From Beroe ovata (lineage: Eukaryota > Ctenophora > Nuda > Beroida > Beroidae): 46,983 nucleotides of DNA. The position numbers and the translations under genes are program-made. Where the stretch lies: positions 191,554 through 238,536 of the forward strand of contig CAMPET010000037.1 of NCBI GenBank assembly GCA_946803715.1, written 5' to 3'. How positions within the stretch are numbered: position 1 is the first letter of the stretch; the number at the start of each line of letters is the position of its first letter. The notes beneath the pieces are model-generated. The model made no database searches and was not told the origin of the DNA. It saw nothing but the letters and a program-made list of their open reading frames with translations. Positions 3,352-46,926 of the stretch are shown in pieces.

Positions 3352-6300
3352 ATGGCTGCATCGGGAGTTCCAATTCAACGGGAACATACACGCACTATGT
3401 CAGACGAAGGGGAAGGACAGACCCCCACAGAGCCGAAACTGGTGGATCTAATGAATAGGACTGGATACCCCATTTCCCAGACGAATGGACAGAGGAAATT
3501 TGGACCACCTCCAGATTGGAAAGGGCCCCCTCCCAAAGGATCAGAGGTGCAATATAAATGATGTTGCAATATTAGATTATGTGGCTTGAATAGTTGAAAA
3601 CCTGTGTAATTTGGACTATTTGGTGAATATATCAGGGAGGCGAGACATGTTCTCATTGACCCATGGTTTAAACTGCAAGAACAATTAAGGTTCCATGTGC
3701 GAAAAAGACGGTGACCGGTTAATTACCAATACCACCAGGTTTTTGTGGGGAAAATACCCCGCGATGTCTATGAAGATGAGTTAGTCCCTCTGCTCAGTCG
3801 GCAAGGTCGTATCTATGAGATGCGATTGATGATGGATTTCAATGGGAACAACCGAGGTTACGCATTTGTGGTTTTCACTGCTAAGAAAGACGCTCAGAAC
3901 GCTATTAGAATGCTGAACAATTATGAGGTGAGCTCCTGTCAAGTTGTTATCCATTTAAAACGAATTTGCACAATGAACATTCTATTGAATAGGAGCTTAT
4001 CCCCTATTAGCAACATACTTCACTTCTAAGATCCGGAGAGGGAAGAACATTGGTGTTTGCTCCAGTGTTGATAACTGCAGGCTCTTTATTGGCGGTCTTC
4101 CTAAAACTAAAGTTAGGGAAGAGATTTTAGAGGAAATGCAGAAGGTGAGTGAATGCAGAAGTCTTTGTCTTAAATTATAGCACGTGTAATTCTCTTCTCG
4201 ACTGTGTTACTATGCAAATTGCGAATTTGGTTTCTATTTCAGTAAATCATACCTTGATTACATTTCTTTAGATAACAGAGGGCGTTCAGAAAGTCATATC
4301 ATACCCTAGTGCCAATGATAAGAGCAAAAACAGGGGGTTTGCATTCGTTGAATATGACAGTCACCGATCAGCTGCTATTGCACGACGCAAGCTTCTTCGA
4401 CAGGTGAGAAGTAGAATCATATTGAAGATGATGTCTACGTCTAACTTAGTTGAAATGAGAACACTTAACTCTAAAAAAGAGTCATATGATAGTTTGCAGT
4501 TGCTAAAATATATATATTCCCACTGTTTATGCGAACCACAATAACAAGCATGCATCATGCAACCACTTAGCAGTTTTATTTGGTTTTCATTATTTAACCA
4601 TTTTTCAGATACCTCAACCGTTCAAGCTGTGGGATCATGTCATAGCTGTCGATTGGGCGGAGCCAGAGATTGAAGTTGATGAAGAAATCATGCTTCAGGT
4701 AATGCTTCATGTATAATTGGTATGAGAAATGTCGGGACGATTTTACACAGAAAATTTAAATCAAGTGTCATGATCGATCTATTATAAATCATTGCAGGTG
4801 GTTTAATAATATGAGGTTACCGATCTTTAATGATATCAAGCAACTACCTACGATTATGATTTTTGAAATTCCTCCTGCCTAAATTTGCCGAATTTATGAT
4901 CACGCCTTACGTAATGTTTCTCACATAACATGATAAAGAGATGGAAGGAATATCTTCAACGATTTATTTCTCCAAACCTCCATTTTCCTCCAATCAGGTG
5001 AAAGTACTGTACGTGAGGAATCTTCACATTGACACCGAGGAGGAAACTGTGAAGGAGGTTTTCCTGAAAATAGCCAATGTTGAACGGGTGAAGAAGATCA
5101 GAGATTACGCATTTGTTCACTTCACTTCGGTGGAAGATGCCAGGAAAGCTATGGAAGCGATCAACGGAACTAAGATTGATGGCTGCGTTGTTGAGGTGAT
5201 TATCTTTACCCACTGTATCAATCTGATTGCCTGTACTGTTATGCCGAATTTCCAATTATTGGCACCATTTATAGCTATAGTTACTACTGGGTATGCCATG
5301 AATTGGAAAGACTCTGAAATCACGAAATGGGCTGATCTCCCAGAGTTTATTATACTACCTATGTTCCTCGCATCATGCTAGACTAGGCTCTATTACCATA
5401 TAGCATCAGATTGGATTGAATCCCTACAGCTGTTGAGTACTGGGTGCTGATCACTGCTTATACATCTCCTCAATTCACACATGTGTAACATTGTGTGACT
5501 ATATATGTTATGCCATGGTAGTGTAGTTCATAGTGTATACCTGCCTACTTTTATCATAGGTGAACCCTTACAAGCCCAGCTGAAATTGAAGTGTCATGAA
5601 GATGAAATACTTTCCGGGTGGCAGGAATCAACCCTATGGCTATGGCAATTTTCTGAGTCTGTGCCAGTTATGTATTACTAACTCAAACTTCTCCTCTCAA
5701 GGTGACCCTTGCAAAACCTGTGGACAGAGAACAGTATGCAAGACACACCAAAAACAAGCAACTGATGAACCCAAGCGCAGCTGCCGGGGCATCAGCTGCG
5801 GCTGTTATTCCTGCAATGAACCCTTATGCTGGCTATCTCAACTTTCAGACTCTTTACCAGCCGTTCATGGTGCCAAACCTCAACCAACTCTCATCCCAGA
5901 ACATAGCCGCGGCTGCAGTAGCGGGCCAGCAGTCTCAGAGTGTTAGGTGAGTGATCAAGTGATGAAGTAGTGATTATAAGTGACATAGACTCATCTGCAT
6001 TGAATATGATTGTAACGCTTCAATGGCATGTAACACGGGAAACAATTGCGCAGGGGTCGTGGTCGACCACTAAGGGGAGCGGCTGGGAGCCGAGGGGCTC
6101 GTACAGCCTATGGTACTGCTGCAACTGCCGGAAGTCATGGCAGACAGCCAATGTATGGCGTGCCTTCCTTCTGGTACGATCCAAAGAGAAAGCGAGGATT
6201 GGACGGACCAGTAAGTATAATTAGGCCAAAAGTACGCAGTTTTTAGCCATATGAAGCACACAGACGCACAAAACTTTTTTTGTAAGGCTAATGTCACTGT

Positions 6301-27874: not shown

Positions 27875-30800
27875 ATGAGGAAGATATCAGACGCGGTGAA
27901 CAACACCCTAACAGAACTATTTGCCCGTAACGCTATCAGCCGATCTAACTACGAGTCAGATGATGATTTTAGTGGGAAGTTCCCCGGTAACAAAGCTCGG
28001 AGAGGCAGTAAGGCGGGTCAGCCACGGCCTTTCTTCATCATCACTGAGGAGACCGGTTCTGTAGGAGGTAAGAGCTGAGGGATGACTAACAGCCTGGGCC
28101 GCGATGCTAGGCCCAGCTGACGCGAGCCGCGAAGCGAAGACGGGACCATCATCGATATAGGCAAAACAGCTACTGAGTTCACATAACTACTGAGTTTGCG
28201 GTATCACTATGATTGCAGTTCGGCAGCTGGACTAGCAATAACTCCAAGTCGTGCACCTATTATAATTAATAGTACCTACTACTCTGAAATATTATTATTA
28301 TAGTCTTCCGAAAATACATCAAAATCAGGGGTTGCTATTTATATAAATTTAAAAACTCTTTCTAACTCGATGACACATACCGAATTCTCGCGGCGTTTTA
28401 ACAAGCGCACGAACCAGCTATGGAGCTATTGTATGTGTGTGTGTGTGTGTGGCTGCACGGTAACCTGCAACTGTAATATACAGGGCGGTGTGTCAAACTT
28501 TAGACACACATATTGTAGTACACATAGTACCTACTACTGCTCGTGATATATAGTTGTCTTCGAATCTGACAAGTTCGTAGAGCTTATAAAGTTAAACTGT
28601 GGGTTCTTATTGTTGTTTACTTGTTTGTTGTTGTTATTTCGTTTTCCGTAGTTTTCGAAAACCGAGAGATTTTCTCAAACCGTCTCGTGCAGTACACGTG
28701 TACGCGATAGCAACAGCATCTCAACTGCGCGACTTGCTGCAGATAGAAGCTCTCATCACAATTCTCGTCACAGGAGGAACACACACACACACACACTAGA
28801 TCATGCCTCTGTCTCGCAGAGGATCAAACAACAGCGATTCCTTCCTCCAGTCCATTATCCAGGGGGTTAGACAGGAGTTTAACACGTCTGATGACCGTAC
28901 TCTCGCGTTCAACATGCTGAACATCCCTCTTAACGGGGGGACCACGCCCATTCACTCCCCTGCTGCACCCCACCGGCACCAGCTTCTGCCCCCCTCTCCC
29001 CTCGTCAGAAGCTCGCCTTCTCACCTCCGCAGGACCGTCTGCACTAAACCGGGCGGGTCATCGGCTCGTGCTTCCCTCGTCCTTGTCAATGTCAACTCAC
29101 CGAGTTTCGACAGAATAGATCGGCAGCTGATTGACAATTACGATGATGTGGATTCCATCAATGGGGATGTGGCGGAAACAGACAACTTCATGCTGTCGCC
29201 CAAACTGCCGGCATTCGCCAAGAACTCGCCCCGATCACGGAAATATAGTCTGCAGATACCGATGCAGGTTAAATCGTTCAAGGAGATCATGCTCAACAAA
29301 CGGAGACACAGCGAAGCAAAAATGCCTGGTCCTGGTAAGTTCAACTTCAGAATAGTTGTACCACTGCAGTAAGTTAGTATTACCTACTGCATTTGATTTA
29401 AATGTTAGCCCCAGAATATGGTGTTTTAGATGGACTCAGCGGTTTCTAATTCTTCAATTTAAACAAATTTCTAAGTCTAACCGCGTGCAGGGTGCAATCA
29501 ATTGCACTCAGCCCGGGCTGGGCACGTTATATCTATGCTCTGGTGGAATGTTGTATCATAGGCTAACCTAAATAAGTTCAAGATGTTGTGGGATTGTTTG
29601 TCATGGGTGCCAGTTATCAAACACAAGGAAATATTATGCCAGACCAAAATATATAAATGAACAGACAAAATGGAATCCTAATTGTAATGTGAAAATCTTC
29701 AAAAATGCATAATTCAGACAAATTAACGTTACCACCACTCCCCCTGAGCAGTTTCAACTTTTGAAGATGTAAATAAGAAACCCTAAACCCTGACAACATA
29801 GATCACAATACCAACTCAGGTTGGCTGTATATTTGAAGTTTACTCTTCAAATCCAGCGCTTCAAAGGGCGATTCTTCCTCAAGAATCGACATCAATTTGC
29901 TACATATAGTGTCAACAGTCCGAATTCCCGACATTTTCATCTTGTCCATGACTTTCCACTTTGATATAATTGATGCTGAATCCTTCGAAGTTACGAACAC
30001 TTTCCCCACCTTATTCGTAGTGTTTTTCATCCTGTCTTCAGCTTGGCCAGTCGTTGTGTCTCTTACAAAGTCTTTAAGGTATGCCGGCATAGCAAGACCA
30101 ACATGATTGTAAATTGTGCTCGATGTCTCCACTGGGTTGAGGCCTAGTTCCGTGTGAGTCACAAGCAAATACCTCTCTTTCAGCCAGGGTTCCGCCTCCA
30201 GAAGTCTCATTGTCTCCAGGGCATTAGAGCAGTAGACATGAGCCTGCCATGCTCGAATTGTCTCTAACTCCTGCTCCGGGTATGTCTCGACTTTGGCCCA
30301 AAACCTGTACGGTTTATAATCGAATCTGCTCCAACCTTTACGAGCATTCATGATGCCGATAGGGTGTCGGAGGAGGTGCACCACTCTGAAATCCACATTC
30401 TGTATGTCCCCGATCAGGAGCAGGTCTCGGAGCGAGGATAGGCGGATAACTTTCACCACAGTGGTATCGCGAGACTCACACACTGATGTCATCAGCCTGA
30501 TCCGGTCATCATCACTACCAACTTGTGAGTCAAGCGGACACTCCGATCCCTCAAATCTCCGCAAATTTTCCTCCTCGCTCCCACAAATCCGGTACTTCTC
30601 CACATATCCCAGTTTGTTGGGAAACACCTCTCCGCACTCGATTAGCTGTTTGAGATACAGTATACGCTGCTCTCTGGGAGTGTGCTGCAGAGTACACCCG
30701 CTCAGACGATCCTGGTTTCTCATCATCAATGCCAAGCCTCCGCTGTGCAGCGGCTCGAACAAATACTGCACATCGGGATTCTCCTCGAACAACTTTCCCA

Positions 30801-33800
30801 AAAACGTGCTACCTCCCCGGAAGGAAGTGAGAAGGATGACGAAACGTTTTGTGGAGTTGATGGGAGCACTGAGTCCCGGATCGGGGGTGTACGGGATTAC
30901 ACGCGGGGAGGATTTCCCGACATCATGATGGGTTGGGATCATGGTGTGTCTCGCGGGGGAGATAAGATTGTCTGAAGAAGAGGAGATGATCTCTGTTATG
31001 AAGTTCTGTGTAGAGGAATAAGAGAGGAGCAGTAGCACGATTGAGGAGAGAAGTAGGAGGGAAGTGAGGAGGGGGAAACTGCTCGCTGGTCTCATGATGT
31101 TGATATGATCGTGCAGTTTGCACCCTGGCTATTCTTGCGCCGGACCTCAAATATATAGATGACAACAAGTCGACAGATTTGATACTCTAGTGAACAGCTC
31201 GGAGAAGAAATGGGCATATTATTAGTATAAGCTGCATGTAGCTACATTTCAGCGTGGTGTGATCAATGACACACAGCATGCCTGCAGATGTTGTCTGAGT
31301 GTTCGCTTCTCCTCCCCAATCGATGTCTGATTGTACTGATTCGAGAGTACGAATGAGAGTACACTTACAGCTGCTGTAGAGCTACGTGTGAGATCAAAGA
31401 TCAGTCATCTTCTCAATGTATTTTCCATTGCAGTCAATTGTAGAAGACACTGGACAATGAGTGGTGTTGTGTCCGGCATAGCTGCAATGTGCGGACTTCC
31501 GATCACCTCAGGGAGGGGGAATTATTCTTAACTCAAGCTTACATTGCACAGTTTACAGCTGTCAAAATAGAGGCAAGATCCTTCAGAATAAGAAATGAGA
31601 CCAACAAACAAAGTGGGAGGGCGACACTTACAAATACTAGTGCACTGCAGCCAAAGTAAGCAAACATTTGATTAATTAACTAATTTATTAATTAATCAAT
31701 TGAATTTGAAGTTAATTAGCTTCAAATATTTCGCTTGCTGTAGTGCACTAGTATTTGTAAAGCGCGATTTAAGTACCACTAAAGTCCATAGAAAGTTGCC
31801 TTGAATCCAGTAAAAACAACAGCCGGTCTAAGCTTTCCCTAATTTGTTGTGGTATCGCCATCGGCGAATCACACTGCATGCTTTCAATACCTATTATTAC
31901 ACTGTCTAACAATTACTAACTCCTCATACACACGTGATGGCAGATATTGCGCAACCTTTCATCAAAATCATCTTTTGTTTTATTAAATCAACAATCAAAT
32001 CAATGACTAAGGTCATTGTTCCTCTGGTCACTATAGTTATACTACAACCTGTTGCTATAATAGTCGTGTCACAAAACAGCTCTGTCGGTTTGACGCTATA
32101 CCACACTATAGTTTGCGAAGCGCATTTTCCAAAATCAATAAGTTGCCAACAAAAGTTGTTTTTTTGAAATTTTGATGAGGTCATTTTGGAGTTCTCACAT
32201 CCGTCTTGGCCTACCGCCAGCTTTCATTTCCAAAACTCCTGAACCGAATGTTGCAGAAGGTAAGCTAACTGCCAATACTATAGTCCAACACACTGTCAAA
32301 CCCTTCGCACCTTTGGCTAGAATTCTTGGGATGGCTAGAATTCTTGGGATGACCACTCAACAATAATACCCTGACATATGTATTCTCAGAGGAAGGCGGA
32401 CAGCAGGAGGGTGCAGGTACAAAAGCAGGGAGCAAGCTGCTGAGGTACGAGTTTACCAAGGATCAGGTGTACCTGGGCGAGGTGGTGGACTATAAAGCAC
32501 ACGGTCACGGTGTACTCCACTGTAAGGAGTGCGTCTTCGGGGGACTGTGGGAAAACGGGATGGAACGGATAGGTGCGTGTGTGTGTGTCTGTGTATGTGT
32601 GTGCTCGTCTGTTTGTCCAGTGTCTGACTCTGTCCACTCCACCCTTGACACAAATTCAATCTTGACACACGCAGCATCATTGACACCCCATAGTGACACC
32701 CCATAGTGACACCCCACAGTGACACCCCACACTAGGAAGCTACCTGTGGCCGAGTGGAGTTCAGTATCACGGTACTTGGGAGAAGGGATATCGGCAGGGA
32801 ACAGGGGTTGAGAAACACGCTCACTATCACTACAAGGTTAGCTATGACTGTGAGTTGCCATGACTGGAATTGGTGAGTTGCTATGGCAACAACGTGTGAG
32901 TTGCCATGACTACATAAACATTGTCATTGGTGTACAATGAACTATACCAGTGCTCTGTGCAGGGTGAGTGGGTGAAGGACTGTAAGCAGGGTTACGGGGT
33001 ACTGGGAGGGGAGACAGGGGGAAAGTACGAGGGAACTTGGCACAACAATCTCAGAGATGGATATGGTATGGAGATATATAAGGATGGAGGTGAGATTGAT
33101 ATAACTTCCCAGCTATCCTCGACTTTTATCTGAATTTCCAAACTCTACGTTATCACCACTATCAAAACTCCAAACATGTACGGAGTCATGTATCACTACA
33201 ACTATCAATAGCCATTAGCCCCACCGATGAGTTCAATATCCAGCGAAACTGTGGTTTTCATCTCCCTATTTTCTGCCCCCCCCCCTTTCTCCCACTCGTG
33301 CAGGTTTCTATGTTGGGCAGTTCAACAAAGGGACCCGTGAAGGACAGGGTGTCCGGGTTTTCAGTCCCAATGCCAAGCTCCGGGACGCGTTTACCAATCT
33401 CACAGGATCGGACAGCACGGCTGAGGTGCCGTCAGCTGCGGACTTGGAACAGAAGCATGGGGTGGCTATATTTGAACAGTTCGAGCACAATGATGTGAGT
33501 GACAATGAATACAGTGTGTGGGCTTGCTTACTGAAAGTATGGTCTAATATGACCAACCCCTGATCAAGTGATACATTCTCCCCCAGTAACGTCTACGTAA
33601 TACTATCGACTATAACCTACCTAATACTATCGACTATAAATATACCGGGCACGTGCTATTTCTATGATCTGCCGACTCATGAGCATGATTCCTCACAGAA
33701 AACTGAGATATACAGAGGCCACTGGAAGGAGGATAAGAGGAATGGACCAGGGGCTGAGCGAACATCCTCAGGTGCGTGGCATGATCCATTCTGTGATCAC

Positions 33801-35803: not shown

Positions 35804-38800
35804 TCAGTGTTTGTTTTTCCTAATCGGATGAAGAACATTCCGCCTACCGATAGATGAGTCGTTGCTAAGACGGGAGTTGTTGCCAGAGAAACCGTTGCTC
35901 TGGAGCAACCTGTTTTCCTCCAGGAGTCGTTGTTGCCTGGTTGTCTTGAAGTAGTCTGAGTTCGTGGCTGTGTTCGACAGCTTGGCTCTGATCCGCGTGT
36001 CGTCTGGCAGATCCATGTACGATGGTTGTATCATGCTCTGGATATTGAAATTATATTGTTATTTTCATCGTTTCACTCGACAAATATTGGAAACCGCAAA
36101 TTTTGCTAATTGAATGAAAGGGTCGATTTCCAGTTGGGGAAGCACTTACAGCACGGTATTTAGGGTAAAAGGCTAACTTAAGAAAACCATAATTCCTCTC
36201 AGTCTCTGTATTATACCTGTCCGTTGTTGTTTGGCTGGTGTTGCTGGGGTGGTAACTTGGTCTGTGAGATGATGACTGGTGGTATAAACCAGGTACCACT
36301 CTCCTCATTCCACTTGCTGTCCCGCTTGATAGCATCCAGATTGTAGTAGTTACTATCACGTCGTAACAGCGGCTGAACCTAGGATACAGATATATTCTTG
36401 TTACGCGAGAGCCTCCCACCTTTATAGCACACCCCCCATCATACTGCTTGGAAATGGAACTGCATCTATCCACGAAACATTGTCCCTCCTTTACTCCTAC
36501 CTACATATTCAATTCTTAAAAACCGCGATTTAATTTATTTTCAAAACCATGCCAGCAGCTAGGATACATGAACTATATCGTATTAAGATCTGATCCTTCA
36601 CGTTTACCTGCTGTAGTATCTGCTCGAGTAACTTGCATTCCTTGCTCTGTTCCCGTATAGAGTCGAGGTAGTCCGCTCTCTGAGTCTCAAACTCCTCCGT
36701 GATGTCGCTAATCTCGCTCATCTTCTCCTTGTACTTGTCCTTGATCTTAGCGAGCTTCTTGTCACGGAGCTCAACCTCGCCCACCTATAGAGTCTGTATT
36801 ATAAACCCTGCTGTCTACATTTACAGACAGCAGGGTGACTGCTAGTACTGTGGTCAACGTGGTGCAATGCATGGTCAATGGTCATGGTGATATTATTGGG
36901 TCTGGACCAATCATGATTCATGATGCAAGATACGATTTATATTGGGTCACATCATTATAGGATGCATCACAAGTCAATATATAATAGCTCCGATATAGTT
37001 TGTAGTGTTAACAATATTTATGTGAAGCAAGAGTCAGATATAAATTAAAATAGATTAAAAAGTGCTACGGAATGTTCAAAGTTCATAATACGAAGTAGAC
37101 TTTGCTTTGTGCGGTTGTTTTGCTTGTTTTGAGAGGGAAAAAATTGATGTTTTCCAAATCGATTACGCATAATGCACATGCCACGCCCATCTTTCATTGG
37201 GATATTGTAGTACGGAATGTGTCTGTCTGTGTGTCTGTCTGTCTGTGTATGTGTGTGTTTGTGTGTGTGTGTNTGGATCTCTCAATATAAGACTTAATTT
37301 CTTTTCACTTACACTTACAACACTGTCATATACACAAAACATATATTGCACGATCAAAAAACACGAAGTCTCATGTACCTTCTTGCTGGACTTGACTTGT
37401 AAGTCAGCCCCCGCAGTCACCACATTCCCCTGGAGTTTCTGTAACTTGAGTAAAGCTTCCTCCTGCTCCCTTGTAGTGATGGTGATGTTGGTCGGCTCGG
37501 AGTTCAGTGCTTCCCGCAACCCTTCACCAGTAGAGGTGTCGGGCGCACCACCTGGTGCTGGTATTTGGAGTGCACCTGGTGCACCACCTGGTGCTGGTAC
37601 TTGGGGAGCACCACCTGGTGTTTCTGGTTGTTTGGAAGCAGTTGCAGTGGGTAGCTGTGTGAGAGAGGACGATTCGGCGACGGTTGGGAGATCCTGTGGA
37701 GATATCAGTGGGTTGAGAATTGATGGAGTCTATGATATGCTGTGATTACAACCCAAGTGGGAAATTCAGGATGACTTCAGCTGACCAATAGGAGGGAAAC
37801 GTTTTGTGTCATGTGTTTTGGTACGGATTTTCGGGGAAGCTCTACTAATAAGAAGCTCTATACAAACCTCGGGTGTTTCCTCTGGTATTGATGCTGGGAT
37901 ATCAGCCTTCCTTTCCTTTCTCCGGAATGTTTTGCTCGATCCTGTGAGTCTAAGGGCTGAGATGTATCTGTTACAATTCCATGCTCACAGTCACTATACA
38001 ACACAATACACTTTACACTGGGCATTGGACACTAAGTCACAGACACACTTTACACTGGACACTGCGTCACAGACACACTTCACATTGGACACTAAGTCAC
38101 AGACACACTTTACATTGGACATTACGTCACAGACTCACTTTACATTGGACACACTATACGTCACATTGTTCTATCAGCATATTGAGCGGTATATTGAGGC
38201 CGGCAACGCGCTATGAGATTGAGTATTGAGTTAGGGTACCATGCCAGCGCTGACATTGTCCAACCAGTAAACAACATGTTCTGCAAGGCTCCGAACCGCC
38301 TTCAAGCACTCAACATTCAGACTCCCAAGTCAGCATAACAATAACATGATAGATTCCTCATGTTGAGTTTTATCGGTTTTTGGCGGCATGGCGCGACGGC
38401 GTGTCCCAACGAGAGCATGTGAAAACTGGCTGCAAAAACTCAGACAATCTAACTCACAATCACGTCCATTCCCACGACACGTAGACAATTATAGTGAATC
38501 GGCTGAAACTATTCACAGTGGTGCCACACACGTTCATAATGTAGCACGTTATTGATGATTATGAGTGAAAAGTGCATGACATGGTGTGATAACTGATATT
38601 GATTAGAATAAAATGAGATTATATTCCCTACCCTCGCTGGCAGGATTCAATCCTTAGCGCGATGCAGAGAAGCCAGAAATCCTACAAGATTAACATAAAA
38701 CAAGGTGAGAGATCGGCATTTGTGCCGGTTTAGACTGCAGATGCAACAATAACACAGCAATAAGACAACAATAAGGCAACAATGAGACAACAATAACACA

Positions 38801-41800
38801 GCAATATCACATGCTATAGCTCACCCTCCAGCAGGAGGTTACAGTGCTCCGTGGCCCCAGCCGACTTGGCCAGATCCTCTTTCTGAGATTGGGACAGATA
38901 GGACACCTGCTGACTGGACAGGGACAGATCTGTCACTTGGGACTTCGTGAGGACAATACGGGATATGTCCTCGGCAGTTACCACAGAGGAACTGGTCTTA
39001 CCTGTAGCAGCAGGGTGTGTACTATAAGTGGCAACATGGGTGTCAATACTTACTCACAGTAAACATGTTGACACATGTATACTTGGGTGTCTATGATTGG
39101 GGTTGTCAGCAGGAGGTACCTATACGTTACATTTGGGTCCATGCTTTGGTACTGGAATATTGGTTCATTAACCGGCTTTATCATGATTCTTATTGGAATG
39201 AAGTATGAAGATACGCGAATGAAAAGTAGCTATCAGAAACTCACCCAGTCTAGCAAGTTGTGACGGTGTCAGGTTTAATTTAGCGATCTGTTCATCTGAC
39301 AACATCTCCGCTTGATCTGTTGTCAGTGACAACATTCCATCCTCGTCCGTTGTACGGAGATAGGCTAACTGACAACAATGAAAAGGGGTTACCACCTGGC
39401 ACAATATGATGTGTCGAACCTTGAGACAGAGCCCAGAGGGTGGCAAGAAAAGACAGTTCAGCAGTCGAAAACTCTCCAAATATGTCACTCTCACATTGGC
39501 GCATGATGTTTACCTCATGTATGGCAGATGTCACAACTTTCTTGACAACTTGTTTCTGCTGTTGTGTAAGTGACGCCATTTGACTGTCTGACAGCTTCAA
39601 TTGGAGTATCTGAGGACAATTGTTTGATATACTTAGCCGAGATAAACTCAGTGATGCAATTACAGCACAATACGTGGTTGATGCTGACTATAACCGGTTT
39701 CCATCATGAAACTACCAACCTCAATTATAGAACCACTCAACATCTACGTCACAGCAATGCAACAAAACTGAGTATTAACGACCCGAACATATCAAAATTG
39801 CCATACCAAACTGACAACTATCATAGTAACAACTTGTGCTACATCAAGCTATAACAGCTATAACAGCTGTGTAGTGCAGACTACCAACCTCAATAAAAGT
39901 ACAACCACTCAACATCTACCTAGTAGCAGTGCAAAACTAGTGAAAATTAACGACCCGGACACACCAAAATTGCCATACCAAACTGACAACTATTATATTT
40001 ATGGTAACTACCTGTGCAATCTCAAACTATACCAGCTACCTGTGTACTCACCTCCAGCTATCTGGAACTAACCTGCTGTCCGTTGAGTGAGATAAGTGAT
40101 ATCTCACTGAGACACAGTGTCTGTCCTGGCACCATGCCCAGGGCGTCGCACTGCTCAGCTGTGAGCTGTAGTCTCTGCATCTGTTCCTCACTCAGCGTCC
40201 TTACCTGTGTGGTGAGATATGTGGTGAGTGAGTGAGTGAGTGAGTGAGTGAGTGAGTGACTACCAATCAATATAATTATAGTGAGGGGGAGAGATGAAGA
40301 TTTGAATATTCTGAGAGATGTGACATTTACAAATTTTACTTCTCCTCAATATACTGTGTCTAATTTTGAAATATTGAGGAAACAGTACAACCTCAATTTA
40401 TCAGAGTTGTGATTGGGAGGGGGCTATGTTGTGGGTTGCTGTGGGTTTTCATTGTTAATCAAATTGTGCACGTGAATTTTACTCGCAGAAGGTCCTCTCT
40501 AGCGTGCTGTTGATCTAAGTATGATAGAAAGTTTCACCCCCACCCCCAATCCAGTGTGTATATATCCCTGAGTAGGTACTAACCTGCGCATCGCTGAGTG
40601 TGATGCCCAATTCTGTGAGTGGAGTTGTGTCCTTCAGTCGCTTGAGAGCGTCCTGAAATTGCAGATTAATTTTGATTAATTGCATATTAATCTAATTAGT
40701 TTTGATTAGCTTGCACTTCGCACCTCTGAGCTTCATGTCGAGTTACAGTTGTGATACGCCATCTCTCTCTCATGTCATGCACAGATACGACCGCAATGGG
40801 GTGCCTACATAAATTCTTGTGTCTAAAATTCTATACTACCGATGTTTTCTAAAGATGCTCTACATACGGATGATTGTTTCATATCATTCGGAGATCTCAA
40901 GTTTAGTTTTGCATCAACATTTGAGACAGCTCAATGTTTCAATACACGTGTAGAGTTTGTACCACAATGTGAATCATACTGTATGATATACACAGACACA
41001 TACAATCACACATACACACGCAAACAAGACACAAACTTCACACACACACACACAAACACACACGTCATGCAAACTCTCTCTGTGCCTCATTCTTACCGTT
41101 GGTGTGTTAGTGTGCAACACATACAATTCTGTGTTGCGTGTCGATGTGATTTGATATGTGTTTGTACGCTCTAGCTTTTACATAAATTATGTTAAAATAA
41201 TGACGATGCTTTCTCTTGTTACGGAAAACACTTTCTTAGTAATGATGACGTCGCGTTTTATTCTACAAGCTTGTTGAGCTATCTTGAGACGCTCGTCATT
41301 TAACGATTTTCGTTCCACTATTTATTGCAATATGAGAGAAATTTATCGGCTGATTTGTAGTTTATACCCGTGCCACACCTCCTTCAAACCCGCACCAAAC
41401 CCGCACTAAACCTGCATAATACATATCAGACCTGCATTATAGACCTGCATGATGAATTGGCGCAGCGCCAATATTTGTCAGGCGGACCTATGCTCGACTT
41501 ATCGTGTATTTTTTATTGACTGCATTGACTGTCGGTATATTAATATGTGACGTATATATTGGCTGTGTGTCATTATAATACGTCTCAGCATAATAATTGT
41601 GAGTAAAACAATTGTCGGTATAATTAGTGTCAGTATAATAAGTGTCGGTATGAAAAGTGTCAGTAAAATAAGTGTCAGTAAAATAAGTGTCGGTATAATA
41701 AGTGTCGGTATAATAAGTGTCAGTATAAAAAGTGTCAGTAACATGTGACATTAGCAGGAACGATGTTACGGAAACCACGTAACCTAATCCTAATCCTGAC

Positions 41801-44800
41801 AGCACTCCTCTCCTCCCTCCTCCTCCTTCTCTACTACTTGTTCATCCACGACACCATGACACCATCGCCCGGTATCAGGAAAAACATGAAGTACTACGAG
41901 ATATACGAGCACAGCGGTGACGTGTCGTTCGGTTGTCATGACGACGAGTATACCATGGTAACGGACGCGCAGTATTACCTCACTGAAGGAGATATGTCGG
42001 AGTCATGTTCATTTCACACGAGGACTAAAGAGCTCATCGAGGGAGAGTGTAGTTACAGGAAGTGGTGCAGGTTTGACCCGGACAGGGACATTTTCTACGA
42101 GCCGTTGTGCCCGCGGGGCGGCGGGATGAAAAAGTTGGAGGTACATTTCCACTGTTATCACTGCCCGGCGGACCACTATTTTACCCCGGGTAAGGGTTGT
42201 TATAAGTGCCCGCGCGGGCTGCACTCAGAATCAGGGACCCCACGATTCTGTATGGCGGGCTATGGGCACGGGGCTGGGGTCATGGGCCAGGAGCCAGAGC
42301 ATCACCATCAACACTAGCAGTAAGGATTACAGTGGGGGACCTTGCAGAGGTACTTATATGTCGATGTCAGGATGTTATTCTGGGAATTGATTTCTATAAA
42401 GTGTGCTACATTGGAGTTAGTAGTGAGAACTCCAATTACAATTTACAAGTGAAGTGTACACCTGTCGAATACAACTGATATCCACAAATATAGTGTTCAG
42501 AAGTTTGCATGAACAATAGTTAGCATGGTCTTTTGTTTTCATTTCGAGTTTATTTAATAAGTTATTGACTGCCGACTGTGAGTTGATACTTCTGTATAAT
42601 TCAGTGCATTATTTTGAATTGTTTTAAACAGCGATATCAGGTTGTATCTTAATCTATCCATGATCCCTCAATCAATATAACTCAATCTTGAACCAAACAG
42701 TCGCTGGTTTATGACCGTTCGGTCTTAGACCAAAAATACTCCAAAAGTATGGGAGTTGTTTCCCATGGATAACTACTATCTTTACCTGTTTGACGAGTTT
42801 CTGTTTTGCGAGATGGCAAGCCTCTCTCTGGTCAGGATCCAGGGGAGTATCGGAGCTGATCGCTAGTTGTGTGATCTGCCCTGGTGTCAACACCACTCCG
42901 CCCAACTGAGAGCGTGCGGTGAGGTGGTAAAGGTGGTGAGGTGTGAGGTGTTAAGGTGAAGGTGGTAAAGGTGGTGAGGTGTGAGGTAGTGAGGTGGTGA
43001 GGTGTGAGGTAATGAAGGTGAAGGTGGTGAGGTGATGAGGTGTGAGGTAATGAAGGTGATGAAGGTGGTAAGGTGAAGAGTCGTGAGGGGTGAGGTGAAG
43101 GAAGTGAGATGGTGAGGTGGTTAGGTGAAGAGTCGTGAGGTGGAGGAGGGTGAGGAGATTGCGATGAGAATAAGGGGATATATGAAGGGTTGTAGTTTTG
43201 TTTTTGTTTGACCATATCAAAGAGATGCTGTTTGATGGAGCAGTATCCATCTTCAAGCGAGAACAGCTCTACAGAACAATCGTCAAGCTGAGTGCGGACA
43301 CAGAATAACCCAGTCCAAACTCACATCCTCGGAATCGAGGTGTCTCCCTGCCTCAATCTGGAGCGAGGTCTGCTGCTCCTTGGTCGGACCCACACTTCCA
43401 GCTACCTGAGCAGAGGATTCATGTGGATTGCAGTCTACCTTTTCAGGGTGGAAATTATGTCACAAGGAGCCACTCCTCCTACCTGAGATGCTTGCTCATG
43501 AGTCAGTACCAGATGTGGCTCCGGACTTGAAGTTTCTGTGAGCTCAACCAACGTAGCGGACTGTTTCTTCAACTGAGGGAACCACGTACTGGTAACAATA
43601 ATATCCCGAGAAAGAGTGATCCCCATGTTATTAACCAAGTACTTGAGATATAATGAGAGGCAACACATTCTTCAGCAAAACATTCGCACTTACTTTTCCT
43701 ATCACTTTGCCATGCTTATCAATTCTTTTCAACTTCTTGGCTTTGATCATCTGTCTTTGTTCCTCTGTCAGCTGCATTTGGTGTATTTCTAAAGGAGTAA
43801 GAGTCAGTGACTCCGCCAATCCTGTCTCAGCTAGAGCACTGTCCTGTGACACAGCAACCTGAGGATGTGGTCAATTGTGGGTCACATGACAGCAGGATAG
43901 CATTGAAACGATGTGGCAAGCCTGGTATCCACGGTAACCACCCTAGCAACCATGGTAACCTGTATTTTGGCGAGCTGCTCTTTGGTGATAGTTGCTGCCT
44001 CAGCGGGGGTCAGTGTGACTGCTTTTGTCAGACCTTCCTCCATATCTACCATCGTGGATATGGCTGCGTTTTCTACATAAGTTTGCGTTTCAATCGACTT
44101 GACAACCTGAATGAATTGTAGATTTTTCATGGAAATTTCGTTCCATGGAAATGTTTCTTCATCAATCTGTATCTTTCCACGCTATGAGGCGCGAGACTCA
44201 CTTTCTGTGTCTGTGTCTTGTCCAGAATGCATGACTCCTGCACCTTGAGATGGGTCACTTGGTGTGGAAGTAGCGGGATCTGGTCTAGGTCACTCACTTC
44301 TGGGTGGGGGGGATTATGTTGCTTCAACTTGTACTTGGATCTTCAACTTGTAACTTTAAATTAGTTTTCACGTGATAGATGCAGTCGCCAGTCAGTCAGA
44401 GTGCAGGACGTATACAGCACTGAACACTGAGCGTACTTGTTAAAGCCAATGGCCATGAGTGGATCAAAGATATTCATCCCTGGTGGTTATGGCCTTGATA
44501 AATATTTTAAGAGCATTTTCCACAAAAAGCTAGGAGCTTGTCAAAATAGCATGCTTTATTTGCATAACGCATAAACGCAACTGGAATAGTCATAGGATAG
44601 GAAAAGAAATTGCAAAAAAGAAATGCTTGTCACGCGAAAATATTACCCGCATGAGTAAAGGAATCCTTGTACTCCTTTATAATCTGAGTTTGCATGTCCG
44701 TCAGCGACATAGACTTCACTAACTTGTCATCTAGCTGAGTTGCTTGCGCTGATGTGAGCTAAAAAGGGGACAAAATCACAAACAGTTTCAGAGTGATTTT

Positions 44801-46926
44801 AAGTTCACTCTTTATCGAGAAGAAGCTAGTGGAACGATTCGTTACAGAGCTGAGAGACGATTCATGGTGTCTCAGCTGCACAACTGGCACTAAGCTGTCC
44901 CCATCACGCAGCTGTCAGCTGTCACGGCTATACTCACAGTGACAGTGGGTAAATTCTGCAACTTCGGATCACTCAGCAGACACATCAGTTCTTGACGTTT
45001 CATCAGAGTCGCCACTTTCTCAACAGCCTGTGAATAGCATACCGCTGCTATCATTCAGTTCGATACTAAAACTATTCACGAGAAACGAAACATCGAGTCA
45101 AGAAATTCAAAACGTGTGAGATATCAAAGACAACCACAACACAAAAATTCTCATGACGTGATCTGAGCTATTTGCTGACCTCAAACTGGTCGTCGTCCAG
45201 TTCATCAAGTTGCTCCTCTGTGAGTTTCAGTTGAGCAACTTGTGCCGGGGTCAACTTCAACTCTGCTATCTGCTCCAATGTCAGCTCCTGGGAGGAAATA
45301 AATGAGCAATTTTCACTTGTTTATTTTGATTTTTCGAGTGAATAGTGGACTACGTCCGTCGTCCGGCGATTAAGTAAATACTGATCCAGGAATCAGATTT
45401 CTCAAAACATTATCGAAATCAGTAGCGGCAAGGTCAGCAACAGTTAGAATCATTGATTCAATTTATCAATCATCCTGCATCTTGGACATGAGATTCAATG
45501 AAATGACTGACTGCCGTGCGATAAATGTTCGGACCATGCGCGGCGCGCGCGTTTTGTATAACAGAGTCGATGCGAGCGTTGACAAGCTGCATGTACTTTC
45601 TGCGTTTGGTTGCCGCGCCATCCGTTTAACACTGTTCTACTTTGAGTGAAGATATGATAATTGATCCAATGAACCAACATCAATTCACTTGTAATGCATC
45701 ACTTTAGCGCGCCTATAAATAATTAAATGTTAAGAGGGATTGAGTCATATTCCCATGCATTGTGGACAGATTATTGAACCAAAACGCACACTTAAAGTAA
45801 TTATCGACTATGTTACTGCATTGAGATATGTATAAATAGTTATCATATCATAGCATGCATTTAACAATCACACTTTTTACATCATACGTGATTCAATACA
45901 GTAACGTGTGTACATTGTGTACTTGATAAAGTTGACACCTTCACTCGAATAACGTAATCATGATTCAAGCTGATATGATATGTGTGACACAAGTCGATCA
46001 TCGAGAGCATTTGAGTGGGATGAAGTGTGGTAGTGTCAAGTGTAGTAGTGTCAAGTGTGGTAGTGTCACAGAAATCAAGTTGGAGTGGTACAAAAATAAG
46101 AAGAAAAAAGACGACAGTGACTATTAATAAGTGGGTACTATTGAGTAGGTATTCGGCAGTTGACACAGCAATGCCACCAATGACCTGACACCAGTTACAG
46201 ACACATTCGCCTTACAACAGTGACCGACACATTGACGCCCGTGACCTGACACCAGTCACCGACACACTGACACCACTGACACTAATCACCGACACATTGA
46301 CACCACTGAGACCGGTAACCGGCACATTGACACCACTGAGACCGGTAACCGGCACATTGACACCACTGAGACCGGTAACCGACACATTGACACACCTGTG
46401 CAGTAGCGGCCCCCTTGCACTGTTTACTCTGTTCCTTGTTGAGGACAAGCGTTGCAAGCTGTTCAGCTGACAGCGTTTGTGCTTGTTCGAATGTGAGTTG
46501 AAGTGGGTCTGTATCCTTCAGTAGGTTTACATAGGAGAGCAGTTGGGTGTATGCCAGCTCTTCACATTGGGCATCTATCTTGTTAATCTGGGAGTTAATC
46601 ACAAATGAGGCATTCGCCTGCTCTTCTTATATACCGAACAAAATAACATGTGAAAATGGAATATGATAGGTACTAAAATCTCTGAAATGGACAAAACAGA
46701 AATGAAAAAAGGAAGAAAAACAGGAACTGTTTCTTACAGCACTGCTCTGGGCAGGGGAGAGCAAGCTCTTCTGTTCCTTGCTCAGTTCTAGCTGCATGAT
46801 CTGAGCCCGGGTTAGAGGCAAGCACGCTACATGTGCTGGTGTGAGTGGTCCGTCGTACCCTAGCATTCTCGTCTGACCAGGGGTCAGGACCAGGTTTGAC
46901 AACTGCTTCGTGGAGAGTGTCTCAGC
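35804..46926 (-). CDS. KIF17/OSM-3-type kinesin tail with a long LT-x-x-Q repeat array; 5' end beyond window
   Basis: Twenty-one in-phase exons in transcript order: 46926-46738, 46617-46396, 45287-45180, 45027-44938, 44758-44647, 44299-44202, 44106-43960, 43858-43694, 43572-43483, 43405-43325, 42905-42786, 40652-40584, 40204-40073, 39609-39514, 39368-39245, 39001-38825, 37941-37868, 37693-37379, 36784-36608, 36378-36217 and 36037-35804. The last five exons (about 320 residues) hold a Pro/Gly linker with PAPGGAP repeats, a coiled coil (DKYKEKMSEISDITEEFETQ, then DYLDSIREQSKECKLLEQIL), the tail signature VQPLLRRDSNYYNLDAIK with SKWNEESGTWFIP, and TNSDYFKTTRQQRLLEEN. This is the tail layout of homodimeric kinesin-2 (KIF17/OSM-3), the motor of intraflagellar transport. 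The first 16 exons encode repeats. The first exon has no start codon, so the motor, if any, lies to the right. Confidence 0.82.
36805..36836. repeat. Perfect 12-bp hairpin just upstream of a splice acceptor
   Basis: ACCCTGCTGTCT and its exact reverse complement are separated by 8 nt. On the minus strand it lies 20-50 nt before the acceptor of the coiled-coil exon starting at 36784. Confidence 0.9.
37230..37273. repeat. TG-rich microsatellite ending in a single N
   Basis: TGTC and TG units end at an N at 37273. It is intronic in the kinesin-tail gene and probably an assembly ambiguity. Confidence 0.9.
38011..38160. repeat. 30-bp minisatellite
   Basis: About 4.5 units of TTGGACACTAAGTCACAGAC plus ACACTTTACA, diverged by a few bases each, in an intron of the kinesin-tail gene. 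Confidence 0.9.
38625..38690. mobile_element. Degenerate copy of the 25908-25995 foldback element
   Basis: It shares CCCTACCCTCGCTGGCAGGATT with one end and GAAATCCTACA with the other end of the 25908 element. The middle differs. It lies in the intron between repeat exons and kinesin tail exons; its reverse strand has a stop soon after a possible acceptor, so it is not taken as an exon. Confidence 0.5.
39711..40031. repeat. Tandem duplication with 169-bp period
   Basis: The segment starting ACTACCAACC at 39711 recurs at 39880; both contain CCACTCAACATCTAC, ATTAACGACCCG, and TTGCCATACCAAACTGACAA. It is intronic, between two repeat-encoding exons (39609-39514 and 40204-40073). Confidence 0.88.
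40222..40262. repeat. (GTGA)n microsatellite beside an acceptor
   Basis: About nine GTGA units lie immediately upstream (on the minus strand) of the acceptor of the exon starting at 40204, giving a CTCA-rich pyrimidine tract. Confidence 0.9.
41595..41743. repeat. 15-bp minisatellite directly upstream of the SUEL gene
   Basis: About ten units of AGTGTCGGTATAATA (with CAGTA variants) end roughly 20 bp before the ATG at 41763, so they occupy the promoter or 5' UTR. The unit length is divisible by three, and the reverse strand therefore reads as an open TDTYY repeat, which is not taken as coding. Confidence 0.93.
41763..42317 (+). CDS. Membrane-anchored SUEL/Gal-lectin domain protein with Cys-rich module, intronless
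   Basis: 184 residues from ATG 41763; an upstream GTG at 41745 is in frame but not a likely start. MLRKPRN is followed by a strongly hydrophobic segment (about residues 8-29), giving a type II signal anchor. Residues 45-130 fit a SUEL (rhamnose/galactose-binding) lectin domain: early Cys in VSFGCHDDEY, MVTDAQYYLTE, ECSYRKWC, then the diagnostic EPLCPRG and KKLEVHFHC. A second small Cys module follows (CYHCPADHYFTPGKGCYKCP, then FCMAGYG), resembling GCC2/GCC3-type EGF-like repeats. The end is His-rich. SUEL domains bind rhamnose or galactose, but many are binding-dead. It is nested antisense inside the kinesin-tail gene. Confidence 0.7.
   Translation: MLRKPRNLILILTALLSSLLLLLYYLFIHDTMTPSPGIRKNMKYYEIYEHSGDVSFGCHDDEYTMVTDAQYYLTEGDMSESCSFHTRTKELIEGECSYRKWCRFDPDRDIFYEPLCPRGGGMKKLEVHFHCYHCPADHYFTPGKGCYKCPRGLHSESGTPRFCMAGYGHGAGVMGQEPEHHHQH
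42908..43165. repeat. GGTGAGGTG-type minisatellite
   Basis: A purine-rich degenerate tract of GGTGAGGTG, GGTAAAGGTG and GTGTGAGGTA units. It abuts the acceptor of the exon starting at 42905 and provides its pyrimidine-rich side on the minus strand. The reverse-strand His/Pro-rich frames are products of the repeat. Confidence 0.9.
45288..46395. other. 1.1-kb intron of the repeat gene with two minisatellites
   Basis: No exon was recognised. It contains a 15-bp repeat (GTGTGGTAGTGTCAA, three units, 46018-46075) and a 30-bp repeat (ACATTGACACCACTGAGACC plus GGTAACCGGC, about four units, 46225-46392). The second runs up to the donor of the exon ending at 46396. Confidence 0.7.

Follow-up and report, generated by a model that had tools for sequence, protein, structure and literature searches.

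With a probability of about 0.7, a chain of 21 exons on the minus strand of a Beroe ovata contig is the half of one ctenophore KIF17 gene that encodes the array and the tail; the product would be a homodimeric kinesin-2 in which the elbow of the stalk has become a long modular arm. The identity and architecture of the gene, a ctenophore KIF17 that carries an array of tandem units, are close to certain. KIF17 is a kinesin working in cilia; KIF17/OSM-3 motors are homodimers that are autoinhibited by folding back and that bind IFT-B. We describe below the exons, the tail and the array found in the window (the whole stretch of 46,983 nucleotides that was analyzed), two ctenophore proteins that join all parts of the motor protein, and a possible role for the arm.

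Exon chain and tail

Splicing the minus strand from 46926 to 35804 joins 21 exons across GT-AG introns, with 20 out of 20 junctions in frame, into 983 residues; a TGA stop closes exon 21 at 35804. Exons 1-16 contribute the 663 complete residues of the array and exons 17-21 the remainder. An earlier sequence-only reading of this DNA had proposed sixteen array exons coding for about 670 residues and five tail exons, all joined in frame, and this arrangement was fully recovered. Its two phase-1 junctions, 39245/39001 and 38825/37941, were also right, and a third, at 44647/44299, can be added to its list. Of the 16 array exons, 12 have phase 0 at both ends. Outside the window lie the first residues of the array (about 8, belonging to its first unit, D1) and all N-terminal parts of the protein.

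In order to find relatives, we used the tail as a query against about 5.8 billion proteins (E ≤ 1e-3; 7991 candidates were scored). Only two proteins matched: P0001 from Mnemiopsis leidyi (1189 aa), publicly named "hypothetical protein", and P0002 from Bolinopsis microptera (1655 aa), named "KIF17 isoform X2". The array of P0002, used as a query in a length-limited, word-based search (7991 candidates), returned the same two proteins only. Both possess a full kinesin motor (PF00225), followed by the array and then by the tail. The window protein aligns end to end with P0002, at 50-74% identity per array unit, and with P0001 over units D1-D4 and the tail but without D5-D7; P0001 departs from the array at the border of window exon 8. 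The features of the gene are as follows.

35804..46926, minus strand: 3' portion of the probable ctenophore KIF17 gene, with 983 residues in 21 exons (splicing; alignment to P0002 and, except for D5-D7, to P0001)
46498..46926, minus strand: array unit D1, residues 1-93 (its first ~8 residues off the window), 68.8% identity to Bolinopsis D1
44938..46497, minus strand: array unit D2, residues 94-193, 62.0% identity to Bolinopsis D2
44014..44758, minus strand: array unit D3, residues 194-294, 74.3% identity to Bolinopsis D3
44080..44088, minus strand: TQT of the TQTYVEN stretch in D3, candidate docking motif for LC8, the dynein light chain (alignment)
43507..44013, minus strand: array unit D4, residues 295-389, 70.5% identity to Bolinopsis D4
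40599..43506, minus strand: array unit D5, residues 390-482, 63.4% identity to Bolinopsis D5
39327..40598, minus strand: array unit D6, residues 483-577, 55.8% identity to Bolinopsis D6
38826..39326, minus strand: array unit D7, residues 578-663, 50.0% identity to Bolinopsis D7
37379..37941, minus strand: exons 17-18, proline-rich linker ending in the conserved LLKLQKLQGNVV..ADLQV coil (splicing, alignments)
36217..36784, minus strand: exons 19-20, KIF17/OSM-3 tail coiled coil, RRDSNYYNLD stretch and kinesin-2 beta-hairpin (tail profiles)
36289..36312, minus strand: beta-hairpin W-N-E-E-S-G-T-W, with W at -3 and +4 of the acidic apex (sequence)
35804..36037, minus strand: exon 21, KIF17 C-terminal region and stop (splicing, alignment)

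A query with the P0001 motor matched 7970 out of 7970 candidates, from which we used the best 120, including P0001 and P0002. The 118 other listed relatives are 60-77% identical to the P0001 motor over the aligned part; 85 of them are named as KIF17 or OSM-3, the remaining 33 have generic names or are unnamed, and no sponge, placozoan or choanoflagellate is named among these 118 (best 120 of 7970). A profile built from the three ctenophore tails, the window's included, was run against this set of proteins already picked by motor similarity and matched 116 of the 118 at E ≤ 1e-3, or 118 of 120 when P0001 and P0002 are counted (the misses are P0004 and P0031), as compared with 0 of 120 reversed sequences; the tail is thus of the KIF17/OSM-3 type that had been suggested for it. 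The window tail alone reached only the two ctenophore proteins at E ≤ 1e-3, with the KIF3A tail at 0.01, and a profile of ten KIF17 tails matched the solved KIF3A/KIF3B tails with E values of 4.5e-8 to 1.8e-5. When the genome was queried with the tail, 3 matches were obtained, all in this gene.

Like the window tail, the KIF3A/KIF3B tails combine a coiled coil with a W-acidic-W beta-hairpin. An excerpt of PMC12527917 describes a hairpin with an acidic apex and aromatic residues at -3 and +4 as the motif by which kinesin-2 motors are kept inactive, and residues W875-N-E-E878-S-G-T-W882 of the window protein fit this definition; a low-confidence model of P0001 places two strands (1070-1072/1077-1079) at the hairpin. 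The same excerpt distinguishes KIF17 and OSM-3 from KIF3A/KIF3B by an extra loop ahead of the hairpin, to which the RRDSNYYNLD stretch of the window probably corresponds.

The linker encoded by exons 17-18 is less alike: residues 664-768 share 27.6% identity with Bolinopsis. We attribute a similarity between exon 18 and a TRIM3 domain (E 0.0074 over 34 residues) to chance. Between exons 18 and 19, the window protein lacks a tail segment of 40 residues (EIKEKL..FNLQ in P0002) that P0001 and P0002 share and that has an equivalent in the consensus of ten KIF17. The segment was absent from intron 18 in all three frames searched, and a separate search gave no match to it; loss and an assembly error are both possible causes. 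Intron 18 (37378-36785 of the window) contains a CA-type repeat and a single N at 37273.

Other open frames were noted in the window. On the plus strand, inside intron 11, a frame of 191 residues (41742-42317) shows a weak match, below cut-off, to a SUEL lectin domain (E 1.4e-4) and may be a nested gene. A frame of 441 residues on the minus strand (29803-31128) resembles a sulfotransferase family below the cut-off (E 4e-5), and a plus-strand frame (4929-5381) contains an RNA recognition motif (RRM_1, E 1.1e-14).

The repeat array and its units

The 663-residue array contains 26 L-[TS]-x-x-Q motifs, whereas 1000 shuffles gave 2.0 on average and never more than 8. Spacings of 8 or 10 residues are the commonest (18 of 35, with a looser motif), and the strongest self-match of the array is a shift of 95 residues (score 113 vs 50 for the best of 10 shuffles). 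Cutting at this period yields seven tandem units of ~95 residues, D1-D7, most of which hold several short L-T-x-x-Q motifs. The L-(T/S)-x-x-Q repeats recognized earlier are therefore real, but they are parts of a ~95-residue unit present seven times. These units are small, probably helical domains. A low-confidence model exhibits a longer helix about once per unit. AlphaFold2 applied to the array (2 sequences) gave a mean pLDDT of 34.4, too poor for structure comparison; applied to the whole of P0001 (10 sequences), it gave a low-confidence model (mean pLDDT 45.7) in which the array is flanked by a predicted helix (397-448) on one side and by the tail helices on the other.

For each of the seven window units, the best Bolinopsis match is the same-numbered unit (7/7), suggesting that the seven-unit array was probably complete before the Beroe and Bolinopsis lineages split. 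The Bolinopsis array has part of an eighth unit, which, when compared with the window, matched only exons of other units. The 663-residue query had 16 matches in the genome, all to this gene on C37 and none elsewhere. Outside ctenophores, the array is absent from the 118 other listed relatives (best 120 of 7970), which have 0-2 motifs each; these proteins and the length-limited, word-based searches are the basis on which the ~95-residue unit is so far assigned to ctenophore KIF17 only.

We also compared the array with known repeats. Searches of Pfam, NCBIfam and the PDB with the array or its units gave nothing over cut-off except a match of the unit profile to HeliScrew4 (PDB chain 9zem, E 1.5e-9). 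Both contain runs of short L-T-P-x-Q-type units; nevertheless, the aligned part of HeliScrew4 consists of regular 8-residue runs in a 120-residue chain, whereas the array shows 8- and 10-residue spacings inside ~95-residue units. We consider the match a similarity of repetitive sequences, from which common descent would not follow. The Pfam ALTTAQ repeat (PF20080), a short repeat with a similar motif, gave weak matches to 3 of the 15 unit copies (best E 0.0075; the copy shown scored 16.4 bits, below the cut-off of 26.4), and a search of the genome with this family gave no match over cut-off. One further array match, at E 0.8, was attributed to chance. The HeliScrew4 stretch with 8-residue LTPEQ-type units itself matches TAL-effector chains and, weakly, mesothelin, which are not known to be related; their repeats have LTPxQ-like units as in the array, yet the array matches neither.

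The open-licence PMC literature yielded no paper on HeliScrew or ALTTAQ, nor, in articles on ctenophore KIF17, kinesin-2 or intraflagellar-transport kinesin, a description of the array. The array had been called novel by the sequence-only reading. This holds in that no Pfam family passes its cut-off, but has to be qualified by HeliScrew4, by the weak ALTTAQ resemblance and by the public gene models, which already include the array under names that are only KIF17 or hypothetical protein.

Probable position of the motor

The right edge of the window adjoins a run of N (C37:238537-271180; 32,644 bases, ~32.6 kb, all but one base of which was read). Since motor, array and tail occur together in the ctenophore proteins, the motor has probably been retained off the window, in this N stretch along with the first coil; its continuity with the window exons is deduced from the relatives. 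A kinesin family search of the genome gave 84 matches, none on C37 among those listed. With the Bolinopsis motor as query, 54 matches were obtained, with 50% identity for the top long match and 72-80% for the top short exons; the highest short-exon identity to the ctenophore KIF17 motor is 85% over 47 residues, on C491. In the readable genome, no motor stood out as particularly similar to ctenophore KIF17. The exons on C491 and C378 resemble sea-urchin and ctenophore KIF17 about equally, and they were rejected as the KIF17 motor orthologue for this reason: the Bolinopsis and Mnemiopsis motors are 93.9% identical, so a true orthologue should be clearly nearer to ctenophore KIF17. Moreover, C491 scores best to KIF3B (167.1 bits vs 156.0 for OSM-3), and C378 does not separate the two (140.8 for KIF3B vs 138.5 for OSM-3).

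Two other explanations place the motor differently. Loss of the motor in this lineage, with tail and array kept as a motor-less adaptor, had been offered earlier as an option and would agree with the 50% identity of the best long match among the 54 in the readable genome. We regard it as very improbable, because both ctenophore relatives keep a full motor ahead of the array and because the ~32.6 kb of N directly upstream leave room for the missing ~550 residues. It is extremely improbable that the window holds two neighboring genes, an upstream one for a repeat-array protein and a downstream KIF17 tail or KIF17 gene remnant. The window by itself shows no motor, and the phases shift near the border of array and tail (exon 16 is 1-1), unlike in most array exons, which would fit two genes; however, the junctions are in frame throughout, and motor, array and tail are joined in two annotated ctenophore proteins, whose gene models imply a transcript running across exons 16-17, in agreement with the single gene originally proposed. 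We retain a single KIF17 gene, its motor probably to the right of the window.

Proposed role of the arm

From the relatives, the order of the complete protein would be motor, neck, first coiled coil, an array of ~700 residues in seven units, second coiled coil, kinesin-2 beta-hairpin and C-terminus. The ctenophore form shares with KIF17/OSM-3 the motor (in the relatives), the coiled coils, the RRD-NY-N-D stretch, the beta-hairpin and the C-terminal region, and differs by the ~700 residues of tandem units between the first and the tail coils. A short hinge between coiled coils 1 and 2 is a usual, not a defining, feature of KIF17/OSM-3, and here the region between the coils holds the 663-residue array. 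The large stalk insertion that the sequence-only reading gave as one option is borne out by the distance from motor end to tail, which is 1116 residues in P0002 and 649 in P0001, compared with 164-505 in the 116 other listed relatives in which it was measurable.

According to an excerpt of PMC12158429, the elbow of OSM-3 is located between coiled coils 1 and 2, and OSM-3 is held inactive by phosphorylation at this site; part of PMC9454703 indicates that KIF17 is autoinhibited in a similar way. The array of P0001 occupies the matching position in the low-confidence model. We tentatively suggest that the array replaces or alters the hinge or elbow at which KIF17/OSM-3 folds its tail onto the motor. 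As a long modular arm, it would change the reach of the hairpin and the ease of its contact with the motor, and it would provide a surface for ctenophore partners. The arm could also be shortened by exon skipping: most array exons have phase 0 at both ends and P0001 leaves the array at an exon border, so that a variable length is possible. For P0001 itself, exon skipping, omission from the gene model and loss are equally possible reasons for the lack of D5-D7.

The TQTYVEN stretch of D3, identical in the three ctenophores (window, Bolinopsis and Mnemiopsis), is a candidate LC8 docking motif. TQT is an LC8 anchor, but many TQT peptides fail to bind, as stated in an excerpt of PMC6607443; TQT also occurs in 7 of the 118 other listed motor relatives (best 120 of 7970), and a second TQT of the window protein, at residue 259, is missing from both ctenophore relatives. 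For these reasons, the stretch is only a lead.

Alternatively, the array could serve only as a passive spacer, having drifted neutrally into a tolerant linker, and lack any function of its own. This agrees with the variable length of the region among KIF17 (the 164-505 residues of the 116 listed others), with the greater divergence of D6-D7 (50-56%) and with their absence, along with that of D5, from P0001. In contrast, D1-D4 are about as conserved between the window and Bolinopsis (62-74%) as the tail coil and hairpin (66.7%), and the order and identity of all seven units have been kept between the two lineages, which makes a passive spacer rather unlikely. The most far-reaching version of the modular arm is speculative and, in our view, unlikely: the ~95-residue unit would be a new helical module, by which the elbow became a splice-adjustable arm with its own docking sites (e.g., LC8 at TQTYVEN), resetting autoinhibition and cargo choice.

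Ctenophores are an early animal branch, and their comb plates are very large compound cilia. An excerpt of PMC6406257 describes the macrocilia of Beroe as very large compound cilia as well. With a chain of units at the place of the elbow, this natural variant is a test of how much stalk OSM-3-type control requires and of whether the distance from motor to tail is tuned. The array-bearing KIF17 is in addition a specific candidate for a change in ciliary transport particular to this lineage.
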